45,333 nt of DNA from Prolixibacteraceae bacterium (GTDB lineage: Bacteria > Bacteroidota > Bacteroidia > Bacteroidales > Prolixibacteraceae). The notes under the pieces are model-generated. The model ran no database searches and was not told where the DNA came from. It saw nothing but the letters and a program-made list of their open reading frames with translations. The stretch is from NCBI GenBank assembly GCA_016649735.1, contig JAENXA010000002.1, forward strand, positions 1 through 45,333, given 5' to 3'. The translations under genes were made by a program, and so were the position numbers. Each line of letters begins with the position of its first letter. The stretch's first letter is position 1. Below, one piece after another: positions 24,578 through 45,326 of this stretch.

Positions 24578-24608
24578 AATTTATATAACTTTACAATTAT
24601 AATTTAAT

Positions 24609-24684
24609 ACGGGGGTGCCTTAATAACGGCTGAGATCATACCCTTTTAACCTGACCGGGATAATGCCCGCGTAGGGAGTAAAAG
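24609..24684 (+). promoter_or_regulatory. TPP riboswitch (THI element)
   Basis: Contains the hallmark conserved blocks in order: GGGGGTGCC, GGCTGAGA, ACCCTTTTAACCTGA, CGGGATAATGCCCGCGTAGGGA. It lies about 57 bp before thi4. No intrinsic terminator follows. A CTCCC at 24704-24708 can pair with GGGAG at 24674-24678 inside the conserved 3' end, giving a possible switch between ligand-bound and unbound forms (inference). It should repress thi4-thiE when thiamin diphosphate is plentiful. Confidence 0.96.
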
Positions 24685-24741
24685 TTTATCTCCATTATTT
24701 AAGCTCCCCTCTTATAACAATAATTAATTAATATATTAATA

Positions 24742-25512
24742 ATGGAACATATTGTATCAGAGGGAATTGTAGATTCCTATTTTAAAAAATTAAAAGAAAA
24801 TCTTAGTGTAGATGTCGCTATTGCCGGCGGTGGTCCATCAGGACTTATAGCTGCTTACTATCTTGCAAAAGCCGGATTAAAAGTTGCAATATACGAACGT
24901 CGTTTAGCACCAGGAGGTGGTATGTGGGGAGGAGCCATGCTCTTCAATCAGATTATTGTTCAAAGTAATGCTCTTCCTGTTTTAGAAGAACTGGGAATAC
25001 AATACAGTGAATTCAAAGATGGATATTACGTAATGGATTCGACTCATACAACATCTGCTCTGATTTATCAGGCAACAAAAGCAGGTGCAAAAATCTTTAA
25101 CAGCACTACAATCGAAGATGTAATTTTTCATGATAACCGTGTAAGCGGAATCGTACTTAACTGGGCAGGAATTCGTCGTGAACAATTACCTGTAGATCCA
25201 TTATCAATATCCGCAAAAGCTGTCATAGACGGTACCGGACATGACTGTGACATAACAAGAACCGTAGCACAAAAAAATAATGTAAAGCTAAATACAAAAA
25301 CCGGAGGCGTTATAGGTGAACGTTCAATGTCAGCAGACGAAGCAGAAAGAACAACTATAGACAACACAAAAGAAGTATTTCCAGGACTTTACGTAACAGG
25401 AATGGCAGCCAACGCCGTTAGCGGTGGATACCGAATGGGACCAATATTCGGAGGAATGATTCTTTCAGGTAAAAAAGTCGCCGAACTTATTATCAAACAA
25501 ATTAAAGGTTAA
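24742..25512 (+). CDS. thi4: Thi4-type thiazole synthase (ADP-thiazole, from NAD, glycine and sulfide)
   Basis: 256 residues, the size of archaeal/bacterial Thi4. Rossmann start DVAIAGGGPSGLIAAYYLAKAG, then YERRLAPGGGMWGGAMLFNQI, AVIDGTGHDCD and the C-terminal VSGGYRMGPIFGGMILSGKK. The family makes the adenylated thiazole of thiamin. In yeast a Cys just before MDP gives up its sulfur; archaeal sulfide-using enzymes have His there. Here the site reads EQLPVDPLS, so the residue is Pro150 (my recollection of the archaeal LHVDP motif). With no Cys, sulfide dependence is expected. It is the first gene after the TPP riboswitch and 6 bp before thiE. Confidence 0.9.
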   Translation: MEHIVSEGIVDSYFKKLKENLSVDVAIAGGGPSGLIAAYYLAKAGLKVAIYERRLAPGGGMWGGAMLFNQIIVQSNALPVLEELGIQYSEFKDGYYVMDSTHTTSALIYQATKAGAKIFNSTTIEDVIFHDNRVSGIVLNWAGIRREQLPVDPLSISAKAVIDGTGHDCDITRTVAQKNNVKLNTKTGGVIGERSMSADEAERTTIDNTKEVFPGLYVTGMAANAVSGGYRMGPIFGGMILSGKKVAELIIKQIKG

Positions 25513-32591: not shown

Positions 32592-32669
32592 ATGAGAAAT
32601 CAGATTTCTATAGTCAGCGTTATTAGTCTAGTCGTTATTAATCTAGTCATTCTAGTCATTCAACAATGA
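32592..32669 (+). CDS. ilvL: ilv leader peptide (25 residues, attenuation)
   Basis: A 25-codon ORF too short for usual gene finding. From residue 5 it reads ISIVSVISLVVINLVILVI: 6 Ile, 6 Val and 3 Leu, 15 of 25 residues. All Leu codons are CTA and four of six Val codons are GTC, both seemingly minority codons in the neighbouring AT-rich genes. The stop codon is 5 nt before the antiterminator arm, the spacing expected for ribosome-mediated attenuation. It is the first element of the transcript leading to ilvD 184 bp downstream. Confidence 0.88.
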   Translation: MRNQISIVSVISLVVINLVILVIQQ

Positions 32670-32673
32670 ATTA

Positions 32674-32735
32674 GGGAGAATATTACGTTGATCATTTACA
32701 TCATTCGCCATTCTCCCCCGGGAGGTGGTTTTTTT
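32674..32735 (+). promoter_or_regulatory. ilv attenuator: antiterminator and terminator hairpins
   Basis: Antiterminator: GGGAGAAT (32674-32681) with ATTCTCCC (32710-32717), 8 bp perfect. Terminator: 32708-32716 with 32721-32728 (CCA-TCTCC with GGAG-G-TGG, loop CCCG), then seven Ts. The two share 32710-32716, so only one can form. A ribosome stalled in the leader would leave the antiterminator free; one at the stop codon would cover its left arm and let the terminator form. Confidence 0.87.
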
Positions 32736-38611: not shown

Positions 38612-38649
38612 AAAAAAGCAGCATCTCGATAAGGAAATGCTGCTTTTTT
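38612..38649 (+). terminator. Intrinsic terminator after ilvC
   Basis: Stem AAAAAAGCAGCAT / ATGCTGCTTTTTT, loop CTCGATAAGGAA, followed by more Ts. It separates the ilv and leu transcripts. Confidence 0.93.
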
Positions 38650-38823
38650 TGTTATTAATTTCCCTCATTAACATACACATAGTATATATATAAGATATAG
38701 GTCAAAAGCCAGTTTTAACTGTATATAAACTTTTAATGTTTTTTTAGCATATTCTTAAAAAAAGTACTGTTAAAAACTACCTTTTAATTTTTTTTCACCA
38801 CCTTTGTTTAAAACAAACAGAAA

Positions 38824-38895
38824 ATGAATTACGGAATTATATCTTATATTATTATTGATCTATTTCTACTTGGTATTCTAGGAATACAAGAATGA
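38824..38895 (+). CDS. leuL: leu leader peptide (23 residues, attenuation)
   Basis: A 23-codon ORF, too short for usual gene finding. Residues 4-21 read GIISYIIIDLFLLGILGI: 7 Ile and 4 Leu. Three of four Leu codons are CTA. The TGA stop (38893-38895) is itself part of the left arm of the antiterminator. A weak -7 box CACCTTTG (38799-38806) is 17 bp before the ATG, so the leader mRNA would be nearly leaderless. Placed before leuA it should sense Leu and perhaps Ile charging. Confidence 0.87.
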   Translation: MNYGIISYIIIDLFLLGILGIQE

Positions 38896-38957
38896 GAATG
38901 GTATATAATTTCCGAAAAAGATAACGAAAGCCATTCTCAAAACAGAATGGCTTTTTT
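38893..38957 (+). promoter_or_regulatory. leu attenuator: antiterminator and terminator hairpins
   Basis: Antiterminator TGAGAATGG (38893-38901) with CCATTCTCA (38931-38939), 9 bp perfect. Terminator AAAGCCATTCT (38927-38937) with AGAATGGCTTT (38944-38954), 11 bp perfect, loop CAAAAC, T-run to 38957. They share 38931-38937, so they exclude each other. Confidence 0.9.
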
Positions 38958-38988
38958 AATTGTATAAAATCAATAAACACAAATTATA

Positions 38989-40488
38989 ATGAGTGATAGA
39001 TTATACATTTTTGACACAACACTTAGAGACGGAGAACAGGTTCCGGGATGTCAGCTGAATACAGTTGAGAAAGTAGAATTAGCCAAAGTACTCGAAGAAC
39101 TGGGAGTTGATGTTATTGAAGCAGGATTTCCTATATCCAGTCCGGGAGACTTTAAATCAGTAGTTGAAATCTCAAAAGCCGTAACATGGCCAACAGTATG
39201 CGCTCTAACCCGTGCAGTAGAAAAAGATATTGACATGGCTGCCGAATCACTAAAATATGCAAAAAAAGGAAGAATTCATACAGGAATCGGAACTTCATAT
39301 TCTCATATTCATTATAAGCTGAATTCCACTCAGGATGAAATTCTTGAACGTGCCGTAAGAGCAGTGAAATACGCTAAAAAATATGTTGAAGATGTAGAAT
39401 TTTACGCTGAAGATGCAGGAAGAACTGACAACGAATATCTGGCAAAAGTTATAGAAGCTGTAATAAAAGCAGGAGCCACTGTTGTAAATATACCGGATAC
39501 AACAGGATATACATTACCCTACGAATACGGTGAAAAAATAAAATATCTTAAAGAACATGTTGATAACATAGATAAAGCCATTATATCTACTCATTGCCAT
39601 AACGATCTGGGAATGGCAACAGCCAATACTATGGCAGGAATAATGAATGGAGCCCGTCAGGCTGAAGTAACCATCAACGGAATTGGTGAACGTGCCGGGA
39701 ATACTGCACTCGAGGAAATTGCAATGATCTTAAAAAGCCGTTATAAACTACTGAATATTGACACAAATATAACAACTAAGAATTTATACAAAACAAGCCG
39801 CATGATTTCTAATATGATGAATATGCCGGTACAGCCAAATAAAGCAATAGTAGGGAGAAATGCATTTTCACATTCTTCCGGAATTCATCAGGATGGTGTT
39901 TTGAAAGAAAGAGAAACATACGAAATTATAGATCCTAAAGATGTTGGAGTTAATGATTCCTCAATTCTATTAACTGCCCGCAGCGGACATGCAGCACTTA
40001 AACATCATATGGAAGCAATGGGCTATGATCTGCCAAAAGAAAAGATGGATGAAATATACAAGAAATTTCTGGATCTTGCAGATAAGAAAAAAGATATTCA
40101 GGACGAAGATATATGTGCTCTTATAGGAGATACCCAAAAAAAAGATCACCGCATAAAACTTGAATATCTGCAGGTAGTAACAGGGAAAACACTTATTCCT
40201 GTTGCAACCGTAAAGCTTAATATAGGAGGAGAAAAATTTGATGCAACGTCTTCGGGTAACGGTCCAGTTGATGCAGCCATAAAAGCTGTAAAACAAATCA
40301 TACACCGCCATGTAACACTTGAAGAATTTTTGATTCAGGCTATAACTAAAGGAAGCGATGATGTTGGCAAGGTACATATGGAGCTCGACTATAAAGGAGT
40401 TAAATATTACGGTTTCAGTGCCAATACAGATATCATAACAGCCTCCGTTGAAGCATTTCTGGATGCTATTAATTCAATTAAGGCCTAA
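38989..40488 (+). CDS. leuA: 2-isopropylmalate synthase
   Basis: 499 residues. DRE-TIM motif [27 protein letters not shown], metal-binding HxH in [13 protein letters not shown] and [15 protein letters not shown] linker (about 330-390) leads to the C-terminal allosteric domain ([34 protein letters not shown]) that normally binds leucine. It condenses acetyl-CoA with 2-ketoisovalerate. It is first after the leu attenuator. Compared with the second paralogue downstream it is the better LeuA match. Confidence 0.95.
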
Positions 40489-40582: not shown

Positions 40583-41983
40583 ATGGAAAAGAAAACATTA
40601 TTTGACAAAATATGGGATGCTCATGTTATTAAAAAAGTAGAAGGAGGACCTAATGTTTTATACATTGACCGCCATTATATTCATGAAGTTACAAGTCCTG
40701 TTGCTTTTTCAGGATTGAAAAACCGAGGATTAAAAGTATTCCGTCCATCACAAACTACCGCAGCACCTGATCATAATGTACCTACATTACATCAGGGAAG
40801 ACCAATTACCGATGTTCAGTCAAAAACTCAGGTAGAACAACTGGAAAAAAACTGTAAAGAATCAGGTATTACCCATTATGGTCTTGGTACCGAAGAACAT
40901 GGGATTATACATATTATCGGCCCGCAATTAGGCCTTACACAACCGGGGATGACAATTGTCTGCGGAGACAGTCATACTTCTACACATGGTGCATTAGGAT
41001 CAATTGCATTTGGAATTGGAACAAGTGAAGTAGAAATGGTACTGGCAAGTCAGTGCATAATGCAGGCAAAACCTAAAAAAATGAGAATTTCCATTGACGG
41101 AAATCTCTCCAATGGTGTTACCGCAAAAGACGTAGTTCTTTACGTTATTGCACAAATATCCACCAGCGGAGGTACAGGTCATTTTGTAGAATTTGCCGGA
41201 TCAACTATTCGTCAGATGAGTATGGACGGAAGAATGACCGTCTGCAACATGAGTATAGAATGTGGTGCACGCGGAGGAATGATTGCTCCCGATGAGACTA
41301 CTTTTGAATATATTAAAGGACGAAAATTTGCACCCAAAGGCGAGGACTGGAATAAATCAGTTGCTAAATGGAAAACTCTTCACACAGACGAAGATGCAGA
41401 ATTTGACAAAGAATATCATTTCAAAGCAGAAGATATTGAACCTATGATTACTTTTGGAACCAATCCGGGAATGGGAGTAGGAATTTCTCAAGATATTCCT
41501 ATGGGAGATAATCTGCAGGGCTCAGACAAAACATCTTTTATAAAAGCTCTCGACTATATGAATTTCAAACCAGGAGAAAAAATGGAAGGTAAAAAGATAG
41601 ACTATGTCTTTCTTGGAAGCTGTACCAATGGTCGTATAGAAGACTTCATAATGTTTGCTAAAATGATTGAAGGGAAAAAGAAAGCAGAAAATGTAACTGT
41701 ATGGCTTGTTCCCGGTTCAAAAGGAGTAGAAAAACAAATTAAAGCAGAAGGACTTGACAAAATTTTTGAAGAAGCCGGAATTCCATTGCGTGAACCAGGA
41801 TGTTCTGCATGTCTTGCTATGAACGATGATAAAATTCCTGCCGGAAAATACTCAGTTTCCACTTCAAACAGGAATTTTCAGGGTCGTCAGGGACCGGGAT
41901 CAAGAACTCTTCTTGCAAGCCCTCTTACAGCAGCCGCAGCTGCAATAACAGGTGTAGTTACCGATCCGCGTAAATTATTATAA
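40583..41983 (+). CDS. leuC: 3-isopropylmalate dehydratase large subunit
   Basis: 466 residues, bacterial LeuC size. Aconitase-type motifs are [24 protein letters not shown] (residues about 129-153), the [4Fe-4S] cysteines in [13 protein letters not shown] and in [14 protein letters not shown], and [17 protein letters not shown]. With LeuD it moves the hydroxyl of isopropylmalate; in several bacteria the same pair also acts on citramalate, which suits the nearby CimA-like gene. It lies 18 bp before leuD. Confidence 0.97.
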
Positions 41984-42001
41984 ACGAAAAAACTATATAA
42001 A

Positions 42002-42589
42002 ATGTCTTACGATAAATTTTCAAAAATAATATCCCCGGCAGTACCCCTGCCTCTTGAGAATGTAGATACCGACCAGATTATCCCTGCACGTTACTTAAAA
42101 GCTATTGAAAGAAAAGGATTTGGTGAAAATCTTTTTCATGACTGGAGGTATGACAAAAATAATAAGCCTGTTAAAGACTTTGTATTAAACAATAAAAAAT
42201 ATTCAGGAAAAATACTTGTCGGAGGAAAGAACTTCGGATCAGGTTCAAGCCGTGAACATGCAGCATGGGCATTATACGATTACGGTTTCAGAGTAGTGGT
42301 TTCAAGTTTTTTTGCCGATATTTTTAAAGGAAATTCTCTAAACAATGGGCTTTTACCTGTAGTTGTATCACCTGAATTTCTTCAAAAAATATTTGATAAA
42401 ATAGAAAAAAATCCTGAAACAAAATTCGAGGTAGACATAGAGAAACAAAAATTCACTATTCTTTCAACCGGAGAATCTACTACTTTTGAAATAAATAATT
42501 ACAAAAAGCATTGTCTTGAAAACGGGCTTGATGATATTGACTATCTTATCAATATGAAAAAAAGTATTGAGCAATTTGAAAACAAATAA
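42002..42589 (+). CDS. leuD: 3-isopropylmalate dehydratase small subunit
   Basis: 195 residues, the usual size of the swivel subunit. Motifs: [39 protein letters not shown], and a C-terminal KKSIEQFEN. It partners LeuC. 56 bp separate it from the next gene. Confidence 0.96.
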
Positions 42590-42645
42590 AATACAGTTTT
42601 TAAAAACGATAATAACTAAAATATTATCAAAAAATTACATACCCG

Positions 42646-44223
42646 ATGACTAAAAATTCTGATAATAAATCCGGCCAGATGATAAGCATCCTCGACACTA
42701 CATTAAGAGACGGGGAACAAACCACGGGAGTTTCTTTTTCAGAAACTGAGAAACTTACTATAGCTAAAATACTTCTTGGCGATGTAGGAGTGGACCGTAT
42801 TGAAATCACTTCGGCAAGAATGTCCGAAGGAGATTTTAATGCCTCGTCCCAGATCATGAAATGGGCAGAAAAAAAAGGTTATCTGGATCGCGTGGAAATT
42901 CTCGGTTTTGTAGACGGTAAAAGCTCAATCGACTGGATAAATCAAGTAGGAGGAAAAGTAATAAATCTTCTTTGCAAAGGATCATATAAACATGTCACCC
43001 AGCAATTAAAAAAGACTCCCGAAGAACATTTGTCTGACATAAGAGAATCTGTAAAGTATGCTAACAGTCTTGGTATTAAAGTAAATGTATATTTGGAAGA
43101 CTGGTCTAACGGTATGCGTAATTCAAAAGATTATGTCCATAAAATTCTTTCAGGCATGAAAGAAATGAACATAGAAAGAATCATGCTACCCGATACTCTT
43201 GGTATTTTAAATCCCAGCGAAACATATCAGTATTGCAGCGAAATGACTAAGAATTATCCAGACATGAAATTTGACTTTCATGCTCATAATGATTACGATC
43301 TGGCTATGGCCGATGTATACGCCGCAATAAAAGGTGGAATCAGATGCATTCATACCACCGTTAACGGTCTTGGCGAACGTGCAGGTAATGCACCACTGTC
43401 AAGTGTAGTTGCCGTCATTTCAGATCAGTTGAAAATGAAGACAGAAGTACGGGAAAACAGATTAACCAGAATCTCCAAAATAGTAGAAAATTTTTCCGGC
43501 ATACGAGTTTCCCCTACAAAACCATTGGTCGGAGATTTCGTTTTCACTCAATGCGCAGGTGTTCATGCTGACGGAGACGATAAAAACAAACTGTATTTTA
43601 ATGATCTGCTACCGGAAAGATTTGGAAGAACCCGAAGTTATGCACTTGGAAAAACATCGGGGAAAGCCAATATCAAAGCCAACTTAAAAGAAACAGGTAT
43701 TAGGCTGTCTCCCGAAAATCTAAGAAAAGTTACACAAAGAGTAACTCTTTTGGGAGATCATAAGGAATCAGTAACTATAGAAGATCTGCCATATATCGTA
43801 GCAGATATTTTGCAGGAAGATATCATACAAAAAATTAAAATAAATAATTATTCACTTTCTCATGCAATGGGGATGAAACCTTCGGCCTCATTAAGCATTG
43901 AAATAGAAGGAAAATCATACGAATCTTCAGAATCCGGAGATGGTCAGTATGATGCTTTTATGAATGCACTAAAAAATATTTATAAGAAACTGAATAAACC
44001 ATTCCCTGTATTACTTGATTATAATGTAACCATTCCTCCGGGTGGTAAAACAGATGCTCTTGTTTCTACCGTTATCACATGGGAAACAGACAAAAGATTT
44101 AAGACCCGCGGACTGGCACCTGACCAGACAGTAGCAGCCATTAATGCTACATTAAGAATGTTAAACCTCATCGAGGATAAACAGATAAAAGATAAAAATA
44201 TTTCTCTTTCAGACAATAAATAA
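42646..44223 (+). CDS. cimA: Second LeuA-family enzyme, probable (R)-citramalate synthase
   Basis: 525 residues, paralogue of leuA. DRE-TIM motif [29 protein letters not shown], HxH in [15 protein letters not shown] and [14 protein letters not shown]; a C-terminal allosteric-type domain follows (about 390-510). The substrate-pocket regions differ from LeuA: SARMSEGD in place of GFPISSPGD. That fits a keto-acid substrate other than ketoisovalerate, most likely pyruvate, giving citramalate and so 2-ketobutyrate for isoleucine. The position between leuD and leuB, and no ilvA in the window, support this. A second isopropylmalate synthase remains possible. Confidence 0.8.
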
Positions 44224-44261
44224 GGACAATTAACACAAACTATATATTTAAAAATTTATAT

Positions 44262-45326
44262 ATGAAAATTAAATTAGCCGTTTTACCGGGTGACGGAATC
44301 GGGCCTGAGATTGTAGAGCAGGCAATAAAAGCAATAAAAGCTGTATCAAAAAAATTCGGACATGATTTAAACTACGAATATGGAATAACAGGAGCAGGAG
44401 CCATAGACAAAGTTGGTAACCCCTACCCCGATGAAACTCACGAACTTTGTATGAACTCCGATGTAGTATTATTCGGAGCCGTCGGAGATCCACGTTTCGA
44501 CAATAATCCATCTGCAAAAGTACGTCCTGAACAGGGATTACTGCAAATGCGTAAAAAACTTGGTCTTTTTGCAAATATACGCCCGGTGGAAACCTTTAAA
44601 TCCCTCATAAACAAATCACCTCTAAAAAGAGAAATCGTAGAGGGTGTGAATTTTGTAACAATCAGAGAACTTACCAGCGGAATCTATTTTGGAGAAAGAG
44701 GACGCAAAGATAATGGGAACACCGCTTTTGACATTTGCCAGTACACAAAGGAAGAAATTAAAAGAATAATGAAGCTTGGTTTCGAATTTGCCATGAAAAG
44801 AAAGAAAAAACTTACCGTGGTAGATAAAGCCAATATTTTGGAAACTTCACGTATGTGGAGAGAAGTTGCCCAGGAAATGTCCAAGGATTATCCGGAAGTT
44901 AAAATGGACTATTTGTTTGTTGATAACGCAGCAATGCGTATTATACAATGGCCAAAAAGTTTTGATGTTATTGTTACCGAGAATATGTTCGGAGACATTT
45001 TAACCGATGAAGCCAGTGTAATTACAGGATCTCTTGGATTATCACCTTCTGCATCAATGGGTATTCATACCTCACTGTTTGAACCAATACACGGTTCATA
45101 TCCTCAGGCCGCAGGGAAAGACATAGCCAATCCTATTGCAACTATCCTATCAGCAGCAATGATGTTTGAATACGGACTATATCTGCAGAAAGAAAACGAA
45201 ATTATTCGCAAAGCAGTAACAGCATCTATGGAAGCAGGTATTGTTACCGAAGATATTGCTACAGGCAAAGCCTATAAAACATCCGAAGTTGGCGATTGGA
45301 TTGCCAAATGGATTGAAGAAAACTAG
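44262..45326 (+). CDS. leuB: 3-isopropylmalate dehydrogenase
   Basis: 354 residues. N-terminal [27 protein letters not shown], the Arg-rich substrate site [17 protein letters not shown], the IPMDH loop [15 protein letters not shown], the Lys/Asp active site [12 protein letters not shown] and [17 protein letters not shown], and the NAD-binding [18 protein letters not shown]. It oxidises isopropylmalate and could also act on methylmalate in the citramalate route. Last gene in the window; its stop is 5 bp before a sequence end region. Confidence 0.97.

Follow-up and report, generated by a model that had tools for sequence, protein, structure and literature searches.

The leuA-leuC-leuD-cimA-leuB genes in this DNA from a Prolixibacteraceae bacterium are very probably controlled by a ribosome-mediated transcription attenuator that senses charged tRNA-Ile and tRNA-Leu. 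This reading is built on the sequence elements, their conservation, selection on the leader codons, covariation and the logic of the competing folds, in the window (the whole stretch analysed, 45,333 nt) and in related genomes. Gene order in the window is ilvD-ilvB-ilvN-ilvC, a terminator, then leuA-leuC-leuD-cimA-like-leuB, and the features of the leuA region are as follows.

38612..38650, + strand: terminator of the ilvDBNC unit, upstream of the leader, from sequence and fold (GCAGCAT 38618-38624 with ATGCTGC 38637-38643, T run 38644-38650)
38799..38806, + strand: putative Bacteroidota -7 promoter element ahead of the leader ORF, CACCTTTG, a degenerate match to TAnnTTTG
38824..38895, + strand: leader ORF MNYGIISYIIIDLFLLGILGIQE, ATG at 38824, stop TGA at 38893-38895, with 7 Ile, 4 Leu and no Val
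38893..38902, + strand: antiterminator left arm (segment 2), TGAGAATGGT, its first codon being the leader TGA stop
38902..38905, + strand: position of a conserved TATG (TATA in the window), just 3' of segment 2 and mostly outside both helices
38927..38957, + strand: intrinsic terminator, AAAGCCATTCT 38927-38937 with AGAATGGCTTT 38944-38954, T run 38952-38957
38930..38939, + strand: antiterminator right arm (segment 3), GCCATTCTCA, doubling as part of the terminator 5' arm
38989..40488, + strand: leuA, 2-isopropylmalate synthase (TIGR00973 and NF002086, over cut-off)
40583-41983, + strand: leuC, downstream of leuA and presumed to lie in one operon with it (40583..45326)
42002-42589, + strand: leuD, presumed leuA operon
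42646-44223, + strand: cimA-like gene, presumed leuA operon, best profile NF042433
44262-45326, + strand: leuB, presumed leuA operon

The leader ORF at 38824-38895 has 23 codons, with Leu codons in the order CTA, CTA, CTT, CTA, which bears out the earlier note's description of seven Ile and four Leu codons, three of the latter CTA. The antiterminator TGAGAATGG/CCATTCTCA spans 38893-38939 and consists of nine Watson-Crick pairs plus one G.U pair (-12.0 kcal/mol), and the terminator, located between the leader ORF and leuA, has 11 perfect pairs (-13.4 kcal/mol). Since the arm at 38930-38937 is common to both, the two structures are mutually exclusive, as had been claimed for a 9-bp antiterminator and an 11-bp terminator; the TGA (38893-38895) likewise proved to be the start of the left arm (38893-38902). 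When 38720-38988 was shuffled 1000 times with dinucleotides preserved, the combined terminator and antiterminator score of 49 was never reached (maximum 40.5), ruling out a chance origin of the element. The possibility that the terminator is ilvC's own was also ruled out, ilvC having a separate terminator at about 38612-38650, and the description of this second attenuator as independent therefore holds. In its sequence, the leuA element has the parts by which a ribosome-mediated attenuator would be defined.

From these elements we infer the following course of events, in which translation of the leader ORF, the promoter, the kinetics and the response to starvation are all predicted. RNA polymerase would start just upstream of the leader ORF, with the ribosome trailing. 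With Ile and Leu in good supply, the ribosome would reach the TGA, its footprint would cover the left arm, and the shared arm would form the terminator. When Ile- or Leu-tRNA is scarce, a scarcity that would be most telling for the tRNA reading the rare CTA codon, the ribosome would stall upstream and leave the left arm free; the antiterminator would then form while the last terminator arm is still to be transcribed, allowing transcription into leuA. Among relatives, an exact TAnnTTTG lies within 60 nt before the leader ATG in 16 of 53 leuA leaders and 33 of 44 ilvD leaders.

In a fold calculation scanning the ribosome along the window leader, the probability of the antiterminator was 0.98 on control codons up to the CTA at 38878, 0.54 on the last Ile codon (ATA 38884) and 0.00 at the stop, consistent with the suggestion that a terminating ribosome masks the left arm. 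Over 96 leaders, the same scan gave 0.96-0.97 with the ribosome at the median control codon, falling to 0.00-0.01 once it is at the stop. In these calculations the terminator was always the equilibrium structure, wherever the ribosome sat, and the switch must therefore be kinetic, decided during transcription; known attenuators likewise switch kinetically. That the terminator is favoured at equilibrium whatever the ribosome does would also fit a constitutive terminator, with the small ORF incidental and leuA controlled elsewhere, a reading to be set against the comparative data below. Folding with an untranslated leader gave a read-through of 0.97 in the window and an even split in relatives. 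Protector (1:2) pairing of the leader with segment 2 showed a weak excess in the family (0.77 vs 0.69, p = 1e-6) and no excess in the window (0.49 vs 0.55).

By nucleotide search, 69 of the 119 genomes covered had a match. In a comparison of leuA upstream regions, the check proposed in the earlier note, the same layout was found before leuA in 28 of the 30 best loci inspected (the window's own included), the exceptions being L023, which is without the element, and L030, which has a diverged version. Named genomes with the layout include Mangrovibacterium, Sunxiuqinia, Draconibacterium, Maribellus, Mariniphaga and others; Parabacteroides and Dysgonomonadaceae have diverged versions, and in the named Prevotella genomes the detector found no such layout. 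A covariance model built from 35 leuA leaders alone matched 131 of 393 genomes of the order. Among the best 88 matches, a few downstream genes are without a name, and those that can be named are mostly leuA or ilvD, with ilvB and gltB making up the rest, gltB in a single genus. Across the wider phylum, some of the sites matched by the model are plain terminators. We conclude that the predicted attenuator precedes leuA in most of the Prolixibacteraceae examined and that the control would be of a known kind, widespread in the order. Other model matches inspected in the window's own genome were rejected as further attenuator copies, being plain terminators.

Several other operons came to light in these searches. 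Upstream of gltB (glutamate synthase; L130, L159, L162 and L190, one genus) the same arm sequences occur, with leaders that have no Ile/Leu run and carry recurrent Lys-His codon pairs (AAA CAY) instead. Before hisG there are His-rich leader ORFs, accompanied by an antiterminator of the GGTAGGCC/GGCTTACC type, both in Prolixibacteraceae and in further families of the order (L242-L260); the window's own genome yielded no hisG. The leuA model also led, in other orders of the phylum, to leaders before ilvE (Ile/Val; L265, L266, L281) and thrA (Thr/Ile; L268, L269, L273, L276) and to a Trp leader before trpE (L291).

The claim of two attenuators in one cluster is upheld, the first also being real and preceding ilvD:

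32592..32735, + strand: first attenuator, before ilvD, with leader ORF 32592-32669, MRNQISIVSVISLVVINLVILVIQQ, rich in Ile/Val/Leu
32674-32681 and 32710-32717, + strand: ilvD antiterminator arms, GGGAGAAT with ATTCTCCC; terminator hairpin at about 32707-32729

Order-wide, leuA leaders consist of 24% Ile, 24% Leu and 2% Val, and ilvD leaders of 18% Ile, 20% Leu and 19% Val, the difference in Val content having p = 6e-16; these statistics come from ORFs picked partly by Ile/Leu/Val content and nearness to the arm. As read from these leaders, the Ile/Leu and Ile/Val/Leu make-ups are a lineage-wide property of the two operons. The earlier note had taken its two attenuators to sense separately: the difference in make-up is real (Val 2% vs 19%), but the notion of different sensors does not hold as put, since both leaders carry Ile and Leu and only Val differs. 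The leader of the ilv operon carries Ile, Val and Leu, the three amino acids to which that operon contributes; such a link between make-up and product would run through both operons. Overlap of the stop with the left arm of the antiterminator was counted in 44 of 54 leuA leaders and 41 of 47 ilvD leaders; the codon is TGA in 45 of 54 and 37 of 47, respectively (window genes end in TAA in 25 of 33 cases). These counts are somewhat favourable because the ORFs were picked near the arm. In the window's ilvD leader, the TGA lies 4 nt ahead of the arm, not inside it. A stop inside the predicted antiterminator is common in these leaders and not specific to leuA, being found also in ilvD leaders, some hisG leaders and Bacteroid-trp RNAs.

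In L155, L156, L200 and L176, one ilvD gene is preceded by two attenuators in series, both with a leader ORF and a terminator of their own. Both serial leaders of L200 are rich in Ile/Leu/Val, and the protein downstream in L176 is 35% identical to the window's ilvD product. Such serial ilvD attenuators may possibly act as a steeper or two-input switch.

Covariation was assessed in the two leader sets. With leuA leaders alone, the antiterminator showed 0 two-sided changes, no better than shuffles; it is uninformative within this set because the arms hardly vary. The terminator of the leuA leaders has two pairs with changes on both sides. When leuA and ilvD leaders are compared, the middle base swaps in three arms together (A/T/T or T/A/A, some with G.U), with 0 broken cases among 76 scorable leaders; the antiterminator pairing thus survives the swap in all scorable cases, contrary to what an always-on terminator would lead one to expect. 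In some other Bacteroidales the arm sequence is wholly replaced and the stop codon is still within or beside the arm.

Single-base differences at the leader control codons (control region, 32 aligned leuA leaders) had a synonymous to nonsynonymous ratio of 1.88 vs 0.44 expected, the second codon position being the most constrained, indicating that the leader ORF is under purifying selection at the codon level. The control codons are also rare ones. Six of the seven Leu codons in the window's two leaders are CTA, vs 53 of 1089 in window genes (p = 9e-8), as are 70 of 274 in leuA leaders outside the window, vs 129 of 3712 in genes; GTC makes up 4 of 6 Val codons in the window leaders vs 39 of 884 in window genes, and 75 of 172 in ilvD leaders vs 320 of 3943 in genes. 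An incidental ORF before a constitutive terminator is thus opposed by the codon-level selection, by the rarity of the control codons and by leader amino acid content that follows the downstream operon across the order, and we regard it as highly improbable.

Besides leucine synthesis, leuCDB take part in forming isoleucine by the citramalate route. A CimA-like gene lies beside leuCDB in the window (NF042433, 663 bits, below the strict cut-off of 950), and a search of the own genome gave no convincing match to threonine deaminase, the best being partial, at 43 bits. The leuA operon therefore probably makes both leucine and, by the citramalate route, isoleucine, and its leader would sense both. 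Alternatively, attenuation is real and leucine alone is sensed, through CTA, the Ile codons being hydrophobic filler. CTA is indeed the strongly enriched Leu control codon, enteric leu leaders and attenuators rely on CUA codons (PMC1183508), and Ile in leuA leaders is mostly ATT, a common codon. Filler of this kind is nevertheless hard to reconcile with an Ile frequency equal to that of Leu, with the near absence of Val, which is just as hydrophobic, or with the CimA-like gene for a likely Ile route, and we consider sensing of leucine alone rather unlikely.

The short TATG motif just 3' of segment 2 (2.0/1.16/1.71/1.12 bits over 40 leuA leaders) lies mostly outside both helices, which could suggest an uncatalogued RNA of T-box or riboswitch type that binds a small molecule or protein and works the terminator with no ribosome. 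This is scarcely credible, as the consensus fold has no further conserved structure, the conserved upstream element is the leader ORF, and no Rfam match was obtained at the window region or at leuA/ilvD loci of four relatives. Our best guess is that TATG is a candidate RNA polymerase pause, in a position like that of the pause in trp and his leaders; it matches the exact E. coli-type pause consensus only in part. A re-initiation start is a second candidate role: ATG, GTG and TTG all occur at this place, and judged by eye in the leader alignment, the short reading frames beyond it lack conservation.

The likeliest source of an earlier prediction is Lopatovskaya et al. 2010 (Mol Biol 44:128). 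Rfam cmscan found no match at the attenuators in the window or at leuA/ilvD loci (L001, L003, L010 and L032 among others), neither the enterobacterial leucine leader nor the T-box giving a covariance-model match over gathering score there, and none of the leuA, ilvD, hisG and thrA leaders tested matched. The Bacteroid-trp leader RNA (RF01692), catalogued in Bacteroidota (PMC2864571), gave no match over gathering score in the window or its own genome. It comes from the same bacterial order and resembles the leuA element in having a control-codon ORF (Trp there), a terminator before a biosynthetic operon and an antiterminator that includes the TGA stop (GTCGTGAG/CTCACGAC in L213-L217). However, amino acid, operon and sequence differ, and its left arm seems to pair with the 3' side of the terminator, whereas that of the leuA element pairs with the 5' arm. 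In several hisG leaders, as in Bacteroid-trp RNAs, the stop is in or beside the arm, like that of leuA and ilvD leaders.

The logic, with control codons matched to the operon product, is that of the his, thr, trp and ilv attenuators of the Gollnick/Yanofsky type, from which the leuA element differs in its lineage-specific sequence, compact layout and stop inside the antiterminator. The Salmonella/E. coli leu attenuator (leuL) shares CUA Leu codons and an exclusive antiterminator and terminator before leuA (PMC1183508). Unlike leuL, the window leader has as many Ile codons or more, it shows no evident protector (1:2) hairpin, and its stop sits within an antiterminator arm; the two were not found to be related in sequence. 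Leader-peptide attenuation has long been reported mainly from Proteobacteria and Actinobacteria (PMC2965389); amino acid operons of Flavobacterium psychrophilum, also of the Bacteroidota, have been inferred to use it, in a passage that names no operon (PMC9723704). It is conceivable, though we put it forward only tentatively, that throughout Bacteroidota a single compact attenuator design serves the ilv, leu, thr, his, trp and even glt operons: the leader stop would be part of the antiterminator, no strong protector hairpin would be needed, sensing would fall to rare CTA/GTC codons, and the conserved TATG behind the arm would make RNA polymerase pause so that it stays level with the ribosome.

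The leuA and ilvD attenuators, absent from Rfam, are now traced through a large part of the order, and their leader codons reflect what each operon probably makes, citramalate-route isoleucine included; bulk annotation is straightforward with the covariance model and the leader set. Theory holds UUA/UUG to be the worst Leu choice in enteric leu leaders, and CTA enrichment together with TTA/TTG scarcity in a distant phylum allows the selective-charging idea developed for E. coli (PMC1183508) to be tested independently, by comparison. Elsewhere in the window, a TPP riboswitch was found at 24601-24694 (71 bits), followed 48 nt further on by an ORF starting at 24742.
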